DNA of 40,625 bases, from assembly GCA_944326555.1 (NCBI GenBank), contig CALVEK010000019.1, positions 1 through 40,625 of the forward strand, in the 5' to 3' direction. Of this stretch, positions 18,084 through 33,855 are shown piece by piece. The notes under the pieces were generated by a model, which was not told the DNA's origin, searched no databases, and saw only the letters and a list, made by a program, of their open reading frames with translations. Position 1 is the stretch's first letter. Every line of letters begins with the position of its first letter. The translations under genes were made by a program, and so were the position numbers. This stretch comes from Candidatus Gastranaerophilales bacterium. Its GTDB lineage: Bacteria; Cyanobacteriota; Vampirovibrionia; Gastranaerophilales; Gastranaerophilaceae.

Positions 18084-18136
18084 TTTCAGGTCTTGCTCAG
18101 TGCCGCAAGCCCTTACAGCCTCGGCTCACTCGCGCT
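18084..18136. repeat. 53-bp GC-rich direct repeat, copy 2
   Basis: This copy is identical to 18006-18058. Its last two bases form part of the stop codon (TAG on the minus strand, 18135-18137) of the flagellar rod/hook gene, so the repeat begins exactly at the end of that coding sequence. Confidence 0.85.
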
Positions 18137-18971
18137 ACGAGCTGATAAGCTGAAGTACTTCTTGTAATAGTTGTTTGTTTGTGGAAATCAGTTTGTTTGC
18201 TGTGTCCATCTGCATTTTGGCCTGTTGATAATACGAGATATTAGCCTTAAAATCACAGTTTGACATTTCCAACAAACCGCCTCGGACTTCACCCCTACCG
18301 ATTACAGGACGTCCTGATTCTTCGGTTTCGATAAATTCTCCTTGTTTTATTTCATATAACCCTTCAGGATTGTGGAAGTTCATAATAGCAAGTTTATACA
18401 ACGGAGTAACATTTTTACCGCCGTCTGATTTTCCGTACAATATACCATCACCCTTGAATTCGAATTCATCATACTTACCCAGATATTTTCCGTTGTTTGG
18501 GTCAATCCAGAGTTTTATATTTGTTGTCGGAATATTAACAGCACCGCCTTTTATACCTGTTTCTGCATATATGTCTGCATCTATAGGCTTTGTGCCTTGC
18601 ATAATTTCGCCTTTATCGTTCAATATATAACCTTGAACAGTATATCCGCTTGGATTTTTGTAGACTCCCTCTTTATCAAATGTGAATTCACCAAGTCGTG
18701 AATATACTATTTGGCCGTCGTAACGACGCAGTGTAAAGTATCCTTCACCTTCGAGGAATACGTTCTCATTTGATGTACCGGGGGTTGATTTACCTTGACC
18801 CACGTTTTTATTAAATCCGTCTATTATTGCGGAGTTCAAAAAAGTTTTGAATGATGCTTGTGTCTCACGATAACCTGGAGTGTATATATTCATAAGGTTT
18901 TCGGAAATTGCATCCATCCACGCTGCTGTGGATTTTTGTGTATTCAGAGCATTAACAAATGAATCGTTCAT
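18135..18971 (-). CDS. Flagellar rod/hook protein of the FlgE/FlgF/FlgG family
   Basis: A 278-residue axial flagellar protein, exported through the flagellar type III pathway. The N-terminal helix ends in N25-L-M-N28-I-Y-T-P-G-Y, the family's N-x2-N-x-x-TPGY signature. The C-terminus (GGLLEMSNCDFKANISYYQ and the heptad-rich tail QMDTANKLISTNKQLLQEVLQ) forms the other half of the coiled-coil core. The length fits FlgF or FlgG (about 250-260) better than FlgE (400 or more). Central motifs such as LEGEGYFTL, TFDKEGVY and GYTVQGYILN match the FlgG-type core domain. It is last in the operon after FliJ and the FliK-like gene, which is an unusual pairing with a rod-type protein. Exact assignment is unsure. 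Confidence 0.85.
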   Translation of the reverse strand: MNDSFVNALNTQKSTAAWMDAISENLMNIYTPGYRETQASFKTFLNSAIIDGFNKNVGQGKSTPGTSNENVFLEGEGYFTLRRYDGQIVYSRLGEFTFDKEGVYKNPSGYTVQGYILNDKGEIMQGTKPIDADIYAETGIKGGAVNIPTTNIKLWIDPNNGKYLGKYDEFEFKGDGILYGKSDGGKNVTPLYKLAIMNFHNPEGLYEIKQGEFIETEESGRPVIGRGEVRGGLLEMSNCDFKANISYYQQAKMQMDTANKLISTNKQLLQEVLQLISS

Positions 18972-18973
18972 TC

Positions 18974-19735
18974 TTACTCTCCTCTATTTTGTTGTTGATT
19001 TTGTCTGCGTTCTCTGTTGTTTTGGTTTGATTGCCTGTACATAATATCGTTGTATGGCAGATTTTGGTCATCAAACCTTTGTTTTAGTGAATTTATATTG
19101 TTTCTAAGATATGCCTCTACAGCCTTGTCTCCGGGGATGAAATCTGCAGAGATTTTACCTTTGGAATCCACTTTTAAAATCACTGAGCAATTGTTATCAA
19201 AATCCAATCTTACGGGTTGTCCCTCTTTGTACGCTTTTGCTAAAAGGTCTGTCAGGACTTTTGATGTCTGTTGGGTTTTGTAAGTTGGACCTATTTCGTC
19301 GGCAAATTTTATAAGATTTTGATTCTCCCCGTTTTGCTGCAGAGCATATTGTTTATTTTCAACAAGGTCTACAAAAAACTTTGCATCGTCTTTTGATATT
19401 TTTGCTGTATCAAAGTTGTACATGCTTTTTATATTTTTAAAACCTGAAATAGTATCAAAGCCAAACTTGCTTACGTATTGTTCATCAATATTTTGCAAGT
19501 TATTTTGATTGTTTTGTTGAGCTTGTTCAATGCTGATTTTATCCGTTGATTGTTGCTCTTCCATAACTTTTTTAAAATCATTTTTTTGCTCTGTTTTTGT
19601 TTCTTCTTTTTTCTCTTGAGTTTTATTGGCAGAAGAAACTTTTTCTGCGTTGTTATTTGAACTGTTTTCCGCAGATACGTTTTGTGTCTGAGAAGTTGAA
19701 TCTATTTGTGTTGTCGAGTTTGCTGTGATATTCAT
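18974..19735 (-). CDS. FliK-like flagellar hook-length control protein
   Basis: A 253-residue protein. The N-terminal half is disordered and rich in N, Q, S, T, E and K, as in FliK. Residues roughly 180-240 match the FliK C-terminal domain by pattern: VRLDFDNNCSVILKVDSKGK, then ADFIPG, then a helix with LRNNINSLKQRFDDQNLPY. That domain switches export specificity from hook to filament subunits. The ATG at 19735 is preferred over a GTG at 19753 because AAGGA precedes it and the longer form would overlap the fliJ stop. It lies 7 bp after fliJ and 2 bp before the rod/hook gene. The protein is shorter than typical FliK (about 400 residues). Confidence 0.72.
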   Translation of the reverse strand: MNITANSTTQIDSTSQTQNVSAENSSNNNAEKVSSANKTQEKKEETKTEQKNDFKKVMEEQQSTDKISIEQAQQNNQNNLQNIDEQYVSKFGFDTISGFKNIKSMYNFDTAKISKDDAKFFVDLVENKQYALQQNGENQNLIKFADEIGPTYKTQQTSKVLTDLLAKAYKEGQPVRLDFDNNCSVILKVDSKGKISADFIPGDKAVEAYLRNNINSLKQRFDDQNLPYNDIMYRQSNQNNRERRQNQQQNRGE

Positions 19736-19742
19736 TTTATTT

Positions 19743-20252
19743 TTATCCTTCACCCTCTATGTTTATTAGGTCTTCGTTGTAGCGAGGGTCTTTCATCAGT
19801 TCAAGGAGTTCTTCTTCTTGTTTTTCTTTTGTTTTTGCGAAGTATTTTTGTATAGCTACTTCTGATAGTTGTTTTAGTTCTGCCTTTTTTTCTTCTTCAA
19901 TATAGGCCTCTTTTGCGTGTTCTTTGTGTTTTTCAAGAACTTTTACGGCTTTTTCCAGTTCACGAAGTTTATCTTTTTCTTCATCCAGAGCTTCTTGAGC
20001 TTTTTGTCTGTCTTGTTCGAGACTTTCTCCTTTTACGTACAGGTGCTTAAGATAGTTGTCATAGGCCTCATACATGGAAAAATCCGCTTGTCTCATGTTT
20101 ACTCTTGTTGATGCAATTTCCTGATTGTTCCTTTCAATCAATCCTTCAATTTTTAGTACCAATGCCTGTGCGTTGCGTACATTTTGGAGTTGTTCTTCCT
20201 TTTTTCTGATTCTGAAATCCAGAATTTTTTGAAGTCTGTAACGAAAAGGCAT
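19743..20252 (-). CDS. fliJ: Flagellar export protein FliJ
   Basis: FliJ is a soluble coiled-coil stalk of the flagellar export ATPase and an escort for export chaperones. The 169-residue length is close to the usual 145-150. The start MPFRYRLQKILDFRIRKKEE is the family's typical N-terminus (F-x-Y-x-L-Q-x-I-L-D). Nearly the entire chain is heptad-rich, charged helix (EEKDKLRELEKAVKVLEKH). No good ribosome binding site precedes the ATG. It heads a three-gene leftward flagellar operon. The adjacent 286-bp interval to 20538 is shared with a divergent gene and shows no confident promoter. Confidence 0.85.
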   Translation of the reverse strand: MPFRYRLQKILDFRIRKKEEQLQNVRNAQALVLKIEGLIERNNQEIASTRVNMRQADFSMYEAYDNYLKHLYVKGESLEQDRQKAQEALDEEKDKLRELEKAVKVLEKHKEHAKEAYIEEEKKAELKQLSEVAIQKYFAKTKEKQEEELLELMKDPRYNEDLINIEGEG

Positions 20253-20538: not shown

Positions 20539-21753
20539 ATGATGGTTACTGTGTCAAATATGATGAACAATTTTGTCAATAAACCTGTATCATACGGTTC
20601 GACAATAGCTTCTAATGCAAAAACTTATATTGATCAAAATTTTCAATCTAAAAATACAGATGATTCAAAGAAAAATTTTGAACGTCCCAAAGAAGATTGT
20701 TTGGTTGATAATACTTTAAAAAACAGAATAAAAATCAATTGGGATAAAACTACTGCAATCCCATTGGTTCATTTCCCCAGAGGTTTAGGTGGAGCACCTG
20801 ATTATACATTTTTTGAATTTTTACAAACTGCTAAATTTCCCTATTATGTAGGTGGTCCGATTCTTGCTGCATTGTTCTATGCAGGTGTAAAAAAAGACAA
20901 CTTTACTGCCGCAAATTCAGCAAAAAAAGTTGCAAAACACATGGCTCTTGGAGTTGGGTTATATTACCTCGGTGCTGCTGTTGCCAAATCAATTATCAAT
21001 AACACAGTTAAAGCCTCAAGAGGTATTGATTTAAATCAGCCTTATATGAAAGTTATTCCTACCTCTACAAATCAAACTGGAGTATTTAAAAAAGACTTTG
21101 AATATCACAAAGTTTTTGAAAGTGCTGATTTTACAAGATGGGATTTGCTTTACAATAAAGAAGCAAACGACCCGAAAGAAATAAACAAAACTTATTCCAA
21201 AATAGCTAAAAAATACGGAATTAAAGATGATGCTAACGATGTTGATTCTACAGTAAAACCGTTAATTAAAAAGACTATTATTATGGCAAGAGCTTGGCAA
21301 TATGCTCTGACAGCATTTTATGTAACTCTCGGTATCGGCATGGCTAACCAAAAAGCGTGGGAAAAAGGTTCTCTTGAGGGCTTTAAGAAAACAATTACTC
21401 ATGGTATTTTTGGCAGCCGTGGTAAAGTTAAAGATATTCTTGAAAAGGCAAAAGCGACTGCTAATGCATCAAAAACAAATACTGCGGTTGAATTTGCCAA
21501 ACTTTGGGGACTTAGAGAAAGATTGCATGCGGCAAAAGTTGCGACTTATGATTATATGATTAAGCCGTTTGGCAAGAGCTTTATGCAATTCTGGGAAGGA
21601 CACAGCAAGGCTTCGTCTATTGCCGGTAAATCGGTAATCCTTGCAACAGGAGCTGCTACCTTAACAGCTGTTATGTTGTTGCTTGGTAAGACGACTGGCA
21701 GATTCCACAAAATTCAGACAAAACAAAATCAGAATAATGAGGTGAAACAGTAA
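20539..21753 (+). CDS. Multi-pass membrane protein of unknown function (cassette gene 1)
   Basis: A 404-residue protein I do not recognise. An AAGGGAA site supports either of two adjacent ATGs (20539 or 20542). The first 70 residues are polar. Hydrophobic helices follow at about 102-117, 135-153, 249-270 and 372-390. Between them is GIDLNQPYM (162-170). A second soluble block contains KKYGIKDDANDVDST (224-238). The same order of elements (hydrophobic stretch, GxDxNQxY, KxGIxxD, hydrophobic stretch, C-terminal TM helix) recurs in the next gene, so the two are probably distant paralogues. The stop overlaps the next start as TAATG. Co-expression with the GH13 gene suggests a shared envelope role, but its nature is unknown. 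Confidence 0.8.
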   Translation: MMVTVSNMMNNFVNKPVSYGSTIASNAKTYIDQNFQSKNTDDSKKNFERPKEDCLVDNTLKNRIKINWDKTTAIPLVHFPRGLGGAPDYTFFEFLQTAKFPYYVGGPILAALFYAGVKKDNFTAANSAKKVAKHMALGVGLYYLGAAVAKSIINNTVKASRGIDLNQPYMKVIPTSTNQTGVFKKDFEYHKVFESADFTRWDLLYNKEANDPKEINKTYSKIAKKYGIKDDANDVDSTVKPLIKKTIIMARAWQYALTAFYVTLGIGMANQKAWEKGSLEGFKKTITHGIFGSRGKVKDILEKAKATANASKTNTAVEFAKLWGLRERLHAAKVATYDYMIKPFGKSFMQFWEGHSKASSIAGKSVILATGAATLTAVMLLLGKTTGRFHKIQTKQNQNNEVKQ

Positions 21754-24700
21754 TGGCAAATTTGATTAATACTATACCTGTTTATAAGCCTCAAACACAA
21801 ATGACACAGCCTCAACAGTCTGTTTCGGTACAAAAACCGCTACCGACATCAAGCGTCAGCAATCCTTTTCCTCAGGTTAATACATATTCTTATATTCCCG
21901 CTAAACCTCTAAGCCCTGCAAGAACTACTCCAAAGGGTGTTAGGCCACATGCCGCAAGCGGACATCTTGTTAAAGAAAATATCTTCCAGTCAATGGGCAG
22001 TACCGTTAAATCTTATGCGGATTATGTAAAATACTTCTACAAAGCTGCTTTTAAAGGTGAAGGAACAGATTATTCTGTCGGTAAAATTAATGATCTTGCA
22101 ATCAGGACTGGTTCTTTGGGTATAGCAACCGTTCTTGCTACTTCAAAACTTTTCCCGTTTGCTAAAGGTATGGAATTTGTCGGACTCGGTACTTGGTTTG
22201 CATCGATGGCTTTGTGGCCTCAAGTCCTTGGTGCTCCGATAAAAGCTAAAACGGGTGTTGATATTAACCAAAAATATATTGATTCTTACGGAAGAAGAAA
22301 GTTTGTTTACGAAGATAACTTATACCGTCCGATGGATTTGTACAGACATGTAGACCTTAACGGCAAACCTCTTTCTGAAGAAGAATATTATAAAAAATAT
22401 GATGTAGATTATGTTTACCTTGATGCTGTCGGTGATAAACTCGGTATTCCAAGAGATATCAAAAACAGACATGAAGCTATCATGAACAAAATGGGTCAAG
22501 TTGCTGTTCAGGGTAAAACTTTATGGATGATGACAGCCGGAGTTATGACACCTGTTGTATCTTCAATCATTGCCGATAGTTTACAAGAACCTTTGAAAAA
22601 CGGACTTGAAAAATACAGATATAATAAACAATTAAAAGAAGTTCAAGAATTAGATAAAAAACTCGATTCTTTACTTGATATAAATCAGCCTGATTTGGGC
22701 AAGAGAAGAGTAAATACTAATATTGAAGAAGTTATTAAGGCTTTGGATATAAAAATTCCTGAATCATCAGAAAAAGAATTCAAGTCTTTGATGGGTGAAA
22801 CAGGTACATTATCTAAATCTGATTTTGATAAACTTCAAAAATTCATAGAAAACAGATTCTTTGGAACAGGACTTAAAGAACCAATGGATTGTGTAATGCA
22901 TTGGAACATGAGAGTAACAGAGCCAAAAATCAGATTGAACGACAATTTGAGAGACGGCTTAATGAAAGCTACTTCTGATGCAGTTAAAGAAGTTCTCGGC
23001 GGATTAAAGAAAGAATTTGTTGCTACTTTACCTAAAGAAATAACCGAATACAAAGGAATTTCTCAACAGGAATATTGGGATATAATCAGTCATTCTTATA
23101 ATGATGGTGCTCAAGAAATGGGTCAGGTTGCACACAGTGCATTCCAAAACATGGCACAAAGAATCCCAATGAACAGATTCAAACAACTAAAAGGTGTTGA
23201 TGAAGAAGTTATCGAGTTGATTTCGGATGCTATTGACAAAAAAGTCATAGAATATATGGATTCACAAAGACATTATATTCTTCCTCAAGAAAAACTTACA
23301 CAGTTGTTTAGATTTGCTGAGTTGAACAATCAGTTAAAGCAGAAACTTGCAAAATTTGAAGAAACTTCTATTATGAATATTTCTGAAGCAATTACTGCAA
23401 ATAACTGGAATAAAGTTCCTGACAAATATCTTAAAGCATTAGGATTCTCCAAAGCAGAATTGGCTCAACTTGCTGCTGCTGATTCTTCCGTATCTTCTAA
23501 AGCTCTGGCCAAGAAATTGGAAGAAGTTGTTGCAGATCCGGAAAGGTACAAAAAAGTACTTTCTACAATGTCAAAATATGCAAAAGAAGCGATATCTAAG
23601 GAAGAAAAAGCTGTAATTCAATTGATAGGAACAGTTGAAACTCCAGGTACGCTTTCTAAAGTTAAAGATTTGATGACTGCAATGGGTGGTGCAAACTTTG
23701 GAGACACTATGAGCGGTCCTTTAACAAACCACTATAGGGCAGAAATTTTTGATTTACAAAACAAAATGAGAAACACTGTAGACTCATTTGTTCGTCCTAT
23801 CAAGGCTCTTGATACTTTCAAGAATATTGATGCTGAAATAGTCAAAATTCTCGGCGGTAATGCAAATGAATACAATGCCAAACTTTCAAACATTGAATAT
23901 TACATGTTTAAAGGCATGGATTATGAGACTGCTAAAAAAGCCCTGAAAGCATACATTAAAGATATTGCTCTTGATAAGAATGATATCAATAACTGGACTA
24001 CAAAAGCCGAACATGTACTCCCCGGAGGTAAAAACGGAATAAAAGATTCTTTGGGTATGGTACAGAAAGTTATCGGTTTTGTAAACGGAAGATTGCAGCC
24101 TGAAACAGAAAACATTATCATTGATTCATTTGTAAATATCTCAGAGGCAGATGCAGCAAAAGATGCGACAAAACAAGCAGAAAGATTCGCTCAAAGAAAA
24201 GCCGCAGAAACATTTGTTCATAAGTGTGATGCCAATAATGAAATTATGCGTTCAAGATTCTTGAGACTTATTAATAAGCTGACTGTTTCGCTTCCTGAAA
24301 ACAGGAATTACATGTTAGATGAATTCCCGTTAAAAATGTTTACGGAAGAGCTTTTGTCAGGCAATAAAAAGTATTTAGATGTTTTAGACATTTTGATAGA
24401 TGAAAGAAAATCCGAACTTTCTTTGGATAAGATTTCCGACCTTAAAAGAGCCAGACAGGCTTTACGTGAAAGCAAGATGGCTGAGTTTGGTCATGACAAT
24501 ATCAGAAAAATTTTCAAAGATTTGTTAACATTCGACACATCAAACAAATCGATATCCGAAATGACAGGTAAGAACGTAACGGAATTCTTCATCGGAGCTG
24601 CAGAAAATGCCCGTTCAAGAAACAAATGGTCTAAACTTGCCTACGGATTGTTAATCGGTACCGTTGCATTGTCAGGTGCAGTGATTACAATGATGGGTAA

Positions 24701-24764
24701 AAAGAATTATTTCAACAAAGATATCTACGAAAAAAAAGAATCGGTACAAGGAGCTGTTAAATAA
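21753..24764 (+). CDS. Large membrane-associated protein of unknown function (cassette gene 2)
   Basis: A 1003-residue protein with no recognised family. The first 70 residues are disordered and rich in P, Q, S and T. Hydrophobic stretches lie at about 117-135, 140-160 and 250-270, and a final helix (about 962-982) sits near the C-terminus. GVDINQKYI is at 168-176 and DKLGIPRDI follows, matching the core of the preceding protein. The long middle (about 290-950) is predicted helical and soluble, rich in K, E and D, with no catalytic motif that I can see. TAATG overlaps join it to both neighbours, implying fixed-ratio translation. It is perhaps a scaffold or envelope protein. Function is not assigned. 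Confidence 0.8.
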   Translation: MANLINTIPVYKPQTQMTQPQQSVSVQKPLPTSSVSNPFPQVNTYSYIPAKPLSPARTTPKGVRPHAASGHLVKENIFQSMGSTVKSYADYVKYFYKAAFKGEGTDYSVGKINDLAIRTGSLGIATVLATSKLFPFAKGMEFVGLGTWFASMALWPQVLGAPIKAKTGVDINQKYIDSYGRRKFVYEDNLYRPMDLYRHVDLNGKPLSEEEYYKKYDVDYVYLDAVGDKLGIPRDIKNRHEAIMNKMGQVAVQGKTLWMMTAGVMTPVVSSIIADSLQEPLKNGLEKYRYNKQLKEVQELDKKLDSLLDINQPDLGKRRVNTNIEEVIKALDIKIPESSEKEFKSLMGETGTLSKSDFDKLQKFIENRFFGTGLKEPMDCVMHWNMRVTEPKIRLNDNLRDGLMKATSDAVKEVLGGLKKEFVATLPKEITEYKGISQQEYWDIISHSYNDGAQEMGQVAHSAFQNMAQRIPMNRFKQLKGVDEEVIELISDAIDKKVIEYMDSQRHYILPQEKLTQLFRFAELNNQLKQKLAKFEETSIMNISEAITANNWNKVPDKYLKALGFSKAELAQLAAADSSVSSKALAKKLEEVVADPERYKKVLSTMSKYAKEAISKEEKAVIQLIGTVETPGTLSKVKDLMTAMGGANFGDTMSGPLTNHYRAEIFDLQNKMRNTVDSFVRPIKALDTFKNIDAEIVKILGGNANEYNAKLSNIEYYMFKGMDYETAKKALKAYIKDIALDKNDINNWTTKAEHVLPGGKNGIKDSLGMVQKVIGFVNGRLQPETENIIIDSFVNISEADAAKDATKQAERFAQRKAAETFVHKCDANNEIMRSRFLRLINKLTVSLPENRNYMLDEFPLKMFTEELLSGNKKYLDVLDILIDERKSELSLDKISDLKRARQALRESKMAEFGHDNIRKIFKDLLTFDTSNKSISEMTGKNVTEFFIGAAENARSRNKWSKLAYGLLIGTVALSGAVITMMGKKNYFNKDIYEKKESVQGAVK

Positions 24765-26863
24765 TGCAGGTAAACAACAATAAGAACTACACATCTCCAT
24801 TAAAAAGCAAGTTGCCATACAATTTTAAGGCATCATTGCTTGCTCAGATGTCAAACGGTGTTGTTAAGAATAATCAAACAGCGGCGATACCTGCGGCTTC
24901 TTCACCTGTTATTCAAAATCTACCTTTAAATGCTGCACAGGTTCCTGTGGCTGTGCCTACAGCACAAATGTACAACAATTTGTACGGACAAAACAGTCTT
25001 ATGACAGTTCTAATGAACAGAACACAAGCAACAAGGGCAGTAAACGCTGCTGTTAATGCACCTCAAACAGCACCTGTAATAAGTCAACCAACATCTGTTA
25101 CCAAGGTAGAAACTGTTAAGTCTCAACCGTTAGAGGGTTATAAAAATAATTTACGTTCTATGTTCCAAAACAATCAGGCTGTTATCTACGCAATGATACC
25201 AAGAACATTTAACGCAAAAGATACTGACGGAAACGGTCTTATCGAGGGTAATGAAGAACCCGGATATTTCACAAATATGGTTGAGCGTTTGGACGAATTG
25301 AAAACATACGGCATCAACACACTTCACTGGCTACCGATAAATCCTCCAGGCAAAATTGCGGCTAAAGGCAGTGCTGGTTCTGTATACGCACCTTTGGATT
25401 ATTTGTCTATAGATCCAAAACTGGATGATCCGCGTAATCCAAAGTCTGTATTTGAAGAAGCTCAAGACGCTATTAAAGAATGTCATAAAAGAGATATAAA
25501 GGTCATGTTGGACTTACCAAGCTGTATGTCTGTTGACCTTTATGATGCAAGACCTGATCTTCGAGCTACTGACGCTGAGGGCAAACCTAAGACTCCTGAA
25601 GGATGGGAAGATATCAGAATGTTTAACCCATGGCAAGATGCCGACAGAAGAGTGCTCAATCCTGATTTGATGGAGTATCATAAAAAGTTTATTGATATGT
25701 GTCTTGACTTAGGTATTGACGGTATAAGAGCCGATGTAGGCAGAGCAAAACCACCTGAATTTTGGGATGAATTGATTGCTTATGCAAGAAGCAAAGATCC
25801 TGAATTTGCTTTCTTAGCAGAATGCTATACTTATGAAGATGCTTCTCCTATGAAAAACATGCCTGCCGACAGACCTGAAGAAGCATTGGATGCAGGTTTT
25901 GATTCATACTACGGACAGTACCACATTTTTAATATTTGGAAAGCAAAAGATTTTCATCAGTTTGTAAAAGACAATCTAAAAATGTCATACAATCACAACA
26001 AAGGAAAATCCATGATAGGCTCTTTTGCTACACATGATGATAAGAGCCCAATGTCAAACGGTGGTCCTGATTACTGTATGATGACAAACGTTGTTCAAAC
26101 TACATTACCTATGACAAACCCGTATATCGTTACAGGTTATGAGTCAGGCGACAGATATATTTATCCTTATGGCAAGAAGTTTGTTGATAAAACGTTTAAC
26201 CAGTTGTTAGAAAATCCTGTGTACAAAGACACAATAAATTCTTTAATGCACACAAGCAAATTTGAAGACAGAGACAAACTCAAAAAACTTCTCTCAAGTC
26301 CTGATGCAAATAAAAAAGTAGCAGAACTTGCAAATATGCCTGAATACAGCGGCATTATAGATTTTCTTGATCACTTCTCATTGACAAAAGATAATATAAG
26401 ACATTATGTTCATACAGAATTTGTTGATATTTTCAACGAATCAAGAAAACCGGGTGGGGAAAACCCTGAAATCGGTCATCATTTTGGTTATATGATGAAC
26501 AGCGTAAGACCAAAATACGGTGAACTTATTACCAAAGGGCAGTATATTGAGCTTAAGGTCGACAACAACAAGCGTGATGAGATTATAGCTTACGCACGTT
26601 GTAAAGACGGTAAGACTCTTGTTACTATCGCAAATCACGATGTAAACTCAAAACAGAAAGTAAAAGTTCATGTGCCGGGAATGAAAGCATCTCAACAGCT
26701 TGTTGATTTATCACCTAAATACGGTACAGGTAGTGAATGGCAAGCGAAAGATAATGTTATAGAAATTGACTTGGGACCTGCACAAGCTCACATTTTTGAA
26801 ATTGATGATCCTGAGTTGCCTAAACTCGTTAAACCTGAAGACGTTTATCAACAAAACTTGTAG
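24764..26863 (+). CDS. GH13-family (alpha-amylase-type) glycosidase with disordered N-terminal extension
   Basis: A 699-residue protein. The first 135 residues are low-complexity (rich in A, P, Q, N and V) and include LPYNFKAS at 18-25. There is no typical signal peptide. The GH13 barrel follows. D324 in GIDGIRADVGRA is the expected nucleophile, E353 in LAECYT the acid/base, and H423-D424 in SFATHDD the third catalytic site. Region I reads VMLDLPSCMS in place of the usual D-x-x-x-N-H. A calcium-loop-like DTDGNGLIEGNEE is at 153-165. A beta-sandwich-like C-domain (about 600-690) completes the enzyme. It would act on alpha-glucans such as starch, glycogen or trehalose-type sugars. It is translationally coupled to the membrane-protein gene before it. 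Confidence 0.85.
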   Translation: MQVNNNKNYTSPLKSKLPYNFKASLLAQMSNGVVKNNQTAAIPAASSPVIQNLPLNAAQVPVAVPTAQMYNNLYGQNSLMTVLMNRTQATRAVNAAVNAPQTAPVISQPTSVTKVETVKSQPLEGYKNNLRSMFQNNQAVIYAMIPRTFNAKDTDGNGLIEGNEEPGYFTNMVERLDELKTYGINTLHWLPINPPGKIAAKGSAGSVYAPLDYLSIDPKLDDPRNPKSVFEEAQDAIKECHKRDIKVMLDLPSCMSVDLYDARPDLRATDAEGKPKTPEGWEDIRMFNPWQDADRRVLNPDLMEYHKKFIDMCLDLGIDGIRADVGRAKPPEFWDELIAYARSKDPEFAFLAECYTYEDASPMKNMPADRPEEALDAGFDSYYGQYHIFNIWKAKDFHQFVKDNLKMSYNHNKGKSMIGSFATHDDKSPMSNGGPDYCMMTNVVQTTLPMTNPYIVTGYESGDRYIYPYGKKFVDKTFNQLLENPVYKDTINSLMHTSKFEDRDKLKKLLSSPDANKKVAELANMPEYSGIIDFLDHFSLTKDNIRHYVHTEFVDIFNESRKPGGENPEIGHHFGYMMNSVRPKYGELITKGQYIELKVDNNKRDEIIAYARCKDGKTLVTIANHDVNSKQKVKVHVPGMKASQQLVDLSPKYGTGSEWQAKDNVIEIDLGPAQAHIFEIDDPELPKLVKPEDVYQQNL

Positions 26864-32068: not shown

Positions 32069-33709
32069 TTATAACTCTCCTAAATCTTTTTTAGGGTTAT
32101 TGCTGACCTGTTTAAAGCCAAATTTGCCCTTTAAAAAATTCAACATACCCGGAGTTATTACATTCGCAGTGCAATCAGGCAGGTAAATATTTTTTACTCC
32201 CAGTTGGCGTAAATTAAACAAATGAGATATTGTGTGTAAATTACATGTGGTTATGAACAAACTTACGGGCAATTTTTCAAAATCAACATGTTTTTTAATA
32301 TGAGCTAAAATTTTGTATATTAAAGAAGAATTAAAAAAGGAATTAAAATACAACACATTTTCCTTTGAAGACGGCAATATTGTTGATATAACAAAATAGT
32401 CGTCAGGCAAATATTCTTCCATAAGACTAAAATATTCGGAATGAACATGAGCGTGATTTAAAAGGCCTATAAAAATCAGATGTTTTATCTCTTTGTTATT
32501 GATTCTTTCAATAAGAGCATCTACTTTTTGCATCACAAAATCTTCATCATAGCCTACTTTGACAGTGGCGATTTTGTGTTCATTTGCATAACCGCAAGAG
32601 TTTTCTGCCGCTCTTATAAGAGAAGAAAAGTCATTGTTCTTAATCTTTGTCATTCCCTTGCCTGCCAAAAGACCGGTTGTAAAAATTCTACCCCTATATA
32701 ATCTGTCTAACAAATATTGAAAATTTCTGACGACAAGAACAGGACCTTTAAAAGAAGCAAAATCAAATTGTACACTGTCAATTGACATCTGAAAATGCCC
32801 TTTTAAATTCTTATATTCCGCAAACTTTGGATAAGCATGAGCAACTATCATTCCATCATGCGTATAAACATTTATATCGGTATCTTTTACAGCTTCAAGC
32901 AAGTTTTCAAAATCTTTTAAATTCTGTCCTGAAACAAGGATTGACTTACCCTCTTTTACCTCTATTTTTACATCATGCAAAGATATCTTTCCAAAATATT
33001 CTTCTTTCTGTTGATGCAATTTTTTGTGTATATCAAAGTTTACCTTTGCAAAATCATTGACTTTCTTTATCAGCTTATTTTCTGTCATCGAAGAAAAATT
33101 GAGATTATTAAAAAGTTTCAATATAGCATCTTCTTCCGGAACATAATCATCCGTATAAGATTTTAATTCTATCAACCTTATACTCGCACTTTTTATTAGA
33201 TTAAGAATAATTTCGTAAAGATTTCTGATATTTGAATTTACTGCAATATTCCTTCTTATTGCCTGTTGTTCTCCCTGATTTACCATAGAAGTCAAATCAA
33301 ATTTGTCGAATTTGATATTTGATTTCAAAATCTGACAATCCATGTTTCTTTTTTCACAAACCGCAATAAATGACTCTTTTACAGATTCTTTTTCGTTGTG
33401 TATTTTTTCAAGAATATCTTGAAATTCGCTCCTATCAAACTCATAACCTATGAGAATTATAGATAAATAATTGATAATTTGATTTTTTAAATCTTTATTC
33501 TCATAACCAAGTTCTTGCATTTTTACGTAATAGTAAGTAATCTGCTTTAATTCATACAAAAGAATTTCCATAAGCGAATAAACAATAGGGTCTATACTGC
33601 AAAAACCGTCAATTGCGCATTCGTTATTATAGTTAATGCTGTCAGAATATGTCTGCCACCATCTGTTTGAGTTATTATAAGGATTTGTGTCTGGAGATTT
33701 GTTAAACAT
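32069..33709 (-). CDS. Hybrid-cluster-protein (Hcp) homologue lacking metal ligands
   Basis: A 546-residue protein that aligns by eye along its length with Hcp/hydroxylamine reductase. Matching blocks include ILVSGQNLKDFENLLEAV, NVYTHDGMIVAHAYP, RGRIFTTG and QLGVKNIYLPDCTANVITPG. The residues that hold the hybrid Fe-S-O cluster in Hcp are replaced: SGHDL is SGQNL (His to Gln), HGEM is HDGM (Glu lost), SNC is RNF, GGCDG is GLLNH, the cysteine of LTLACGKYR is gone, AGQC is gone, and the E-x-K of WFEQKA becomes N-x-H. At the N-terminus only C31 and C37 of the four proximal-cluster cysteines remain. The frame is intact, so this looks like a maintained protein without Hcp redox activity. It is divergent from the M16 gene. 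Confidence 0.78.
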   Translation of the reverse strand: MFNKSPDTNPYNNSNRWWQTYSDSINYNNECAIDGFCSIDPIVYSLMEILLYELKQITYYYVKMQELGYENKDLKNQIINYLSIILIGYEFDRSEFQDILEKIHNEKESVKESFIAVCEKRNMDCQILKSNIKFDKFDLTSMVNQGEQQAIRRNIAVNSNIRNLYEIILNLIKSASIRLIELKSYTDDYVPEEDAILKLFNNLNFSSMTENKLIKKVNDFAKVNFDIHKKLHQQKEEYFGKISLHDVKIEVKEGKSILVSGQNLKDFENLLEAVKDTDINVYTHDGMIVAHAYPKFAEYKNLKGHFQMSIDSVQFDFASFKGPVLVVRNFQYLLDRLYRGRIFTTGLLAGKGMTKIKNNDFSSLIRAAENSCGYANEHKIATVKVGYDEDFVMQKVDALIERINNKEIKHLIFIGLLNHAHVHSEYFSLMEEYLPDDYFVISTILPSSKENVLYFNSFFNSSLIYKILAHIKKHVDFEKLPVSLFITTCNLHTISHLFNLRQLGVKNIYLPDCTANVITPGMLNFLKGKFGFKQVSNNPKKDLGEL

Positions 33710-33855
33710 ATCTGCATGTTATAAAAATTTTTTACATAATCCATTAACCAAAAGAGCAATCAAAAAATAATCCATATTACCTGTTATTAAGATTATGCGC
33801 CACAATTAAAATATATAGTATAATCTGATATCAAAGATTATAGAGGATTAAATTT

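Follow-up and report, generated by a model that had tools for sequence, protein, structure and literature searches.

The window, i.e. the whole stretch of DNA analysed here, comprises 40,625 nucleotides (contig CALVEK010000019.1) of a Candidatus Gastranaerophilales bacterium belonging to the family Gastranaerophilaceae, whose genome amounts to 2.08 Mb. The gene under study occupies positions 32069-33709 of the minus strand and is an ORF with an ATG start; its frame is unbroken over 546 codons, as had been claimed in a first-pass annotation of the same DNA. A short intergenic region (33710-33855) separates it from a divergent M16 peptidase gene, and the same arrangement is seen in the window's genus and at related loci. 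Elsewhere in the window, two ORFs with overlapping ends (20539-24764; 404 and 1003 amino acids) without any Pfam match are directly followed by an alpha-amylase-like ORF (24764-26863). At 18135-20252 lies a gene resembling those of the flagellar hook, with a FlgE/F/G D1 domain and preceded by two small ORFs, in a lineage that is often described as non-motile.

The product of the ORF is a full-length homologue of the hybrid cluster protein (Hcp). It matches the Prismane family PF03063 above the gathering threshold (117.4 bits, E 9e-34, cut-off 27), and in a phmmer search residues 29-537 matched the solved Hcps 7de4 (E 7e-41), 8cnr and 1e2u. The Hcp equivalog profiles NF003658 and TIGR01703 gave scores below their curated cut-offs (231.8 vs 367 and 226.6 vs 360.8 bits, respectively). 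A canonical Hcp is also encoded by the same genome; at its locus (L001, G000:C23; 722-1375 and 1492-3030) it is divergent from a Crp/Fnr-type regulator (cNMP_binding plus HTH_Crp_2), unlike the paralogue in the window.

The general fold of the window protein was assessed with an AlphaFold model based on 50 aligned sequences, which reached a pLDDT of 87.4 and a pTM of 0.87. The best Foldseek matches of the model were solved Hcps (E ~1e-28, TM up to 0.79), and superposition with VIA-align on the Hcp of D. vulgaris gave a Z-score of 30.8 over 507 residues at 4.1 A and 21% identity. The most divergent relatives, forms of ~490 amino acids from other genera, are likewise modelled with the Hcp fold (pLDDT 87.7, Z ~28). 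Conservation of this fold, previously proposed from a comparison by eye, is thus borne out by the model and its superposition on solved structures, and the predicted structures show the Hcp fold to be kept over the full length despite the loss of ligands described below.

The ligand positions were mapped in pairwise and multiple alignments on the host genome's own canonical Hcp, in which all ligands are present. None of the seven hybrid-cluster ligands (His, two Glu, four Cys) is kept by the window protein, and only two of the four cysteines of the proximal [4Fe-4S] cluster, Cys31 and Cys37, remain, the first two being absent (Table 1). The alignments agree in all three respects with the first-pass annotation, which had read the C-terminal E-x-K as N-x-H, the His, Glu and four Cys ligands elsewhere as replaced, and two of the four proximal Fe-S cysteines as lost. 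A different placement of the cluster ligands was considered and rejected, as the local blocks align almost gap-free in both kinds of alignment and offer no Cys, His or Glu substitutes. A check for uniform loss among homologues had been suggested at the same time. Within the window's genus, all 16 of 16 members have the same replacement residue at six of the seven ligand sites, but across the family these columns vary. Their variability is about average (25th-78th percentile of column entropy), which argues that the old sites have been abandoned and not turned into one shared new ligand set.

Table 1. Positions in the window of the Hcp-like gene, its former ligand sites and its conserved cysteines.
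Feature	Position	Strand	Evidence
Ligand-less Hcp-fold protein, 546 aa	32069..33709	-	ORF, Pfam, AlphaFold model, fold comparison
Cys31, retained proximal-cluster cysteine	33617..33619	-	120/132 relatives
Cys37, retained proximal-cluster cysteine	33599..33601	-	118/132 relatives
Cys118, conserved Cys in the helical domain	33356..33358	-	118/132 relatives; also Cys in some canonical relatives
Gln262, replaces His ligand	32924..32926	-	alignment
Gly286, replaces first Glu ligand	32852..32854	-	alignment
Phe330, replaces Cys ligand	32720..32722	-	alignment
Leu417, replaces persulfide Cys ligand	32459..32461	-	alignment
Leu445, replaces Cys ligand	32375..32377	-	alignment
Phe458, replaces Cys ligand; adjoins a ~9-residue deletion of the ligand-bearing loop	32336..32338	-	alignment
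Cys489, new conserved Cys directly before the former Glu ligand; mostly Tyr/Phe in canonical Hcp	32243..32245	-	127/132 relatives
Asn490-x-His492, replaces Glu-x-Lys (Glu ligand and nearby Lys)	32234..32242	-	alignment
Cys513, new conserved Cys after the next strand; mostly Thr/Ser/Asn in canonical Hcp	32171..32173	-	126/132 relatives

Two features go beyond what had been noticed before, namely the new pair Cys489/Cys513 and a glutaredoxin gene upstream in many relatives. Both cysteines lie at the 3rd percentile of column entropy and are thus among the most conserved positions of the family. They are missing from five sequences, representing four independent events, and always jointly; among sequences with both positions readable no loss of only one of them was found. 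A plain count gives ~3e-9 for this joint pattern when relatedness is ignored, whereas in a relatedness-aware sign test the four joint losses are too few events to reach 0.05 alone. Cys118 and Cys31/37 vary independently of the pair. In the model (whose numbering is one lower than that of the protein), each cysteine sits shortly after one of two consecutive strands, Cys489 after 481-484 and Cys513 after 506-509, and the loop with Cys489 carries a former cluster ligand. On loss of the neighbouring [4Fe-4S] domain, the class III Hcp structure shows a concerted movement of the equivalent Glu434 loop and the Trp461 region (PMC10502027). Judged from the strand ends in the model and from this joint shift of the equivalent regions, the two cysteines would be spatially close and border the vacated active-site pocket. 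Shortened ligand-less forms (~474-501 amino acids; L104-L110, genera g17, g18, g24 and g27) keep the equivalents of both.

Hcp homologues, canonical ones included, were found in 273 of the 286 genomes of the order Gastranaerophilales. The profile of the family matched in all but three of the sampled Gastranaerophilaceae genomes, whereas an intact canonical Hcp is patchily distributed (~40 of 124 genomes). In a tree from which the ligand columns had been left out, 54 ligand-less sequences form one clade (SH-aLRT 100) and the canonical Hcps group together across a branch (99); between them lie four sequences drawn from two other families. As far as sampled the clade is confined to Gastranaerophilales, and in other families of the class every Hcp that was read retains its ligands (L100 was read without its N-terminus). 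Two other families of the order contain partly stripped homologues: L096 (803-2437) retains all four proximal cysteines and three hybrid ligands, L097/L091 (1444-3096) two proximal cysteines and two hybrid ligands, and L092 (1474-3120) and L093 (1438-3075) two other cysteines. Judged by their residues, these proteins appear to be living intermediates of ligand loss, and their different degrees of stripping, together with the single clade, point to a stepwise loss within one order. Two copies of the ligand-less protein occur in some genomes, in tandem in G236 (L047, 483-2090 and 2090-3685) and also in G257.

The ligand-less protein is under strong purifying selection. For 27 pairs of ligand-less genes with dS < 2 the median dN/dS, for which a check for values < 1 had been proposed, was 0.07 (range 0.05-0.15). 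A decaying Hcp duplicate without function might be suspected from the loss of all ligands and the drift of the old ligand columns, but this possibility is extremely remote in view of the low dN/dS, the frames that are unbroken in nearly all of ~270 genomes, the ~48 positions that are more than 85% conserved in the ligand-less family, and the family-wide retention; selection and retention together rule out a pseudogene. The earlier proposal that the retained fold serves a new purpose is supported by the modelled fold, by the near-universal presence of the protein as opposed to the patchy canonical Hcp, and by the dN/dS of ~0.07.

Of 150 located relatives, 89 have a glutaredoxin as the gene immediately upstream on the same strand. 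An ORF-based test of 132 loci placed a glutaredoxin upstream in 68, the gap having a median of 5 nucleotides, and two more loci were recognised by eye; the two genes are probably co-transcribed. The linked glutaredoxins belong to two subfamilies, PF00462-like and GST_N_3-like, with ~35% identity over 34 residues, and they occur in several different wider neighbourhoods. The N-terminal catalytic cysteine is present in 68 of 68 of them; most have the dithiol motif CPYC, and CPYS replaces CPxC in 12. No glutaredoxin was found upstream of canonical or intermediate Hcps, for which the upstream stretch was long enough in 22 of 27. In the window's genus and several other genera no adjacent glutaredoxin was found, and apart from glutaredoxin the neighbourhoods differ among genera, without any universal gene neighbour. 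Along the tree, adjacency switches state only five times, so that the independent evidence for the link is much smaller than the 89 cases would suggest. In L154 both cysteines of the pair are lost and the upstream glutaredoxin is still present. Glutaredoxins also persist in Gastranaerophilaceae genomes without any Hcp homologue, which implies that they have other clients; a GST_N_3-type glutaredoxin was present and a Prismane match absent in G078, G090, G147, G186, G193, G209, G217, G234 and G273. The window's genome has a single PF00462 glutaredoxin, located elsewhere, and encodes glutamate-cysteine ligase and glutathione synthetase, which makes glutathione chemistry plausible.

For the new use of the fold, sensing, scaffolding or binding of a different ligand had been listed before; the conserved cysteine pair and the glutaredoxin linkage narrow this list towards thiol chemistry. 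We give an even chance to the proposal that the Hcp scaffold, now metal-free, has been converted to a dithiol redox protein with glutaredoxin at its service, the thiol chemistry being deduced from these two features. In this scheme a divergent Hcp copy would have shed its hybrid-cluster ligands stepwise, along with half of the [4Fe-4S] motif and the loop that led to one of the Cys ligands. Cys489 and Cys513 would have become fixed at the C-terminal ends of two consecutive strands that flank the vacated pocket. As it acts on a partner protein, or on a small substrate of electrophilic or nitrosative/sulfur type, the pair may alternate between its dithiol form and a disulfide, or else a form modified by glutathionylation, nitrosylation or persulfidation. 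The oxidised pair would then be re-reduced by glutaredoxin, the product of the upstream gene in more than half of the located relatives; in the window's genus this reduction could occur in trans, by the single PF00462 glutaredoxin of the genome together with glutathione. The literature connects canonical Hcp with NO reduction and with the S-nitrosylation of proteins (PMC10502027, PMC10210160), and these links make a substrate of the nitrosative or thiol-modification type a natural guess. Taken as a whole, the picture of a metal-free enzyme of the Hcp/CODH fold, whose ancient Fe-S-O site was cleared step by step, with a glutaredoxin-reduced dithiol for a nitrosative, sulfur or electrophile substrate taking its place, and whose gene joined the gene core of Gastranaerophilaceae as the metalloenzyme became dispensable, is put forward as tentative and somewhat short of evenly balanced.

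That Cys489 and Cys513 disappear together would be expected of two metal ligands just as well as of a disulfide. The two, perhaps together with Cys118 or Cys31/37, could hold another metal or a reconstructed Fe-S cluster, with glutaredoxin as the cluster or metal donor and not the reductant, and the protein would then be a remodelled metalloenzyme or a metal/redox sensor. CPYS-type glutaredoxins of other organisms can hold Fe-S clusters, and in line with such a role 12 of the 68 linked glutaredoxins carry this motif and most relatives retain the former proximal-site cysteines Cys31 and Cys37. However, only two cysteines are strictly coupled, with Cys118 and Cys31/37 varying on their own, the newly conserved residues nearby include no invariant His, Asp or Glu except Asp/Asn490, and most of the linked glutaredoxins are of the dithiol CPYC type, all of which makes a metal site rather unlikely.

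That the former catalytic residues are all gone, and that newly fixed residues are also found far in sequence from the cysteine pair (for example Arg339-Gly340, Glu48 and Asn204), would suit a protein without catalytic activity that acts as a scaffold or regulator or binds a partner, such as canonical Hcp or some other protein, and in which the pair forms a structural disulfide. We consider this unlikely: the protein occurs in most genomes of the family without a canonical Hcp and is therefore not an accessory of Hcp, and a structural disulfide would leave the glutaredoxin partner unexplained and, if stable, would be unusual in a cytosolic anaerobe. As to the preferred reading of a glutaredoxin-served dithiol protein, its new function is open to direct tests by way of the cysteine pair and the glutaredoxin partner.

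A ligand-less Hcp family was not found described in the open-access literature, nor was any link made there between Gastranaerophilales and hydroxylamine reductase or between Melainabacteria and the hybrid cluster. Searches on glutaredoxin and on paralogues likewise gave no link of this kind among the titles and abstracts listed. Published accounts define the Hcp/CODH superfamily by its metal clusters, and a large, selected family free of ligands, with intermediates, would show how a complex metal site can be dismantled and its protein reused. The annotation 'hydroxylamine reductase' would be wrong for the ligand-less copy in these gut bacteria.

With the class I/II Hcps (hydroxylamine/NO reductase, PF03063; 1e1d, 7de4 and 8cnr) the window protein has in common its full-length homology, domain order and modelled fold (Z ~30, 21% identity over 507 residues), but it differs in having 0 of 7 hybrid ligands, 2 of 4 proximal cysteines, one deleted ligand loop and the new Cys489/Cys513, and the ligand-less family differs from them in its glutaredoxin linkage. 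The Hcp domain fold is also common to the class III Hcp of Methanothermobacter marburgensis (7e0l; PMC10502027), on which VIA-align superposed the model with a Z-score of 36 over 394 residues, and all three Hcp classes conserve their cluster ligands (PMC10502027). Ni,Fe-CODHs, including CooS-V, have a distant superfamily fold in common with the model (VIA-align Z ~18); since their C-cluster ligands fall on the Hcp ligand positions (PMC10502027), all of which are replaced, the window protein lacks the ligands of the C-cluster. Glutaredoxins (PF00462) and GST_N_3-type glutaredoxin-like proteins, finally, are related to the system as the product of a separate upstream partner gene in many relatives, which is absent beside the gene in the window.
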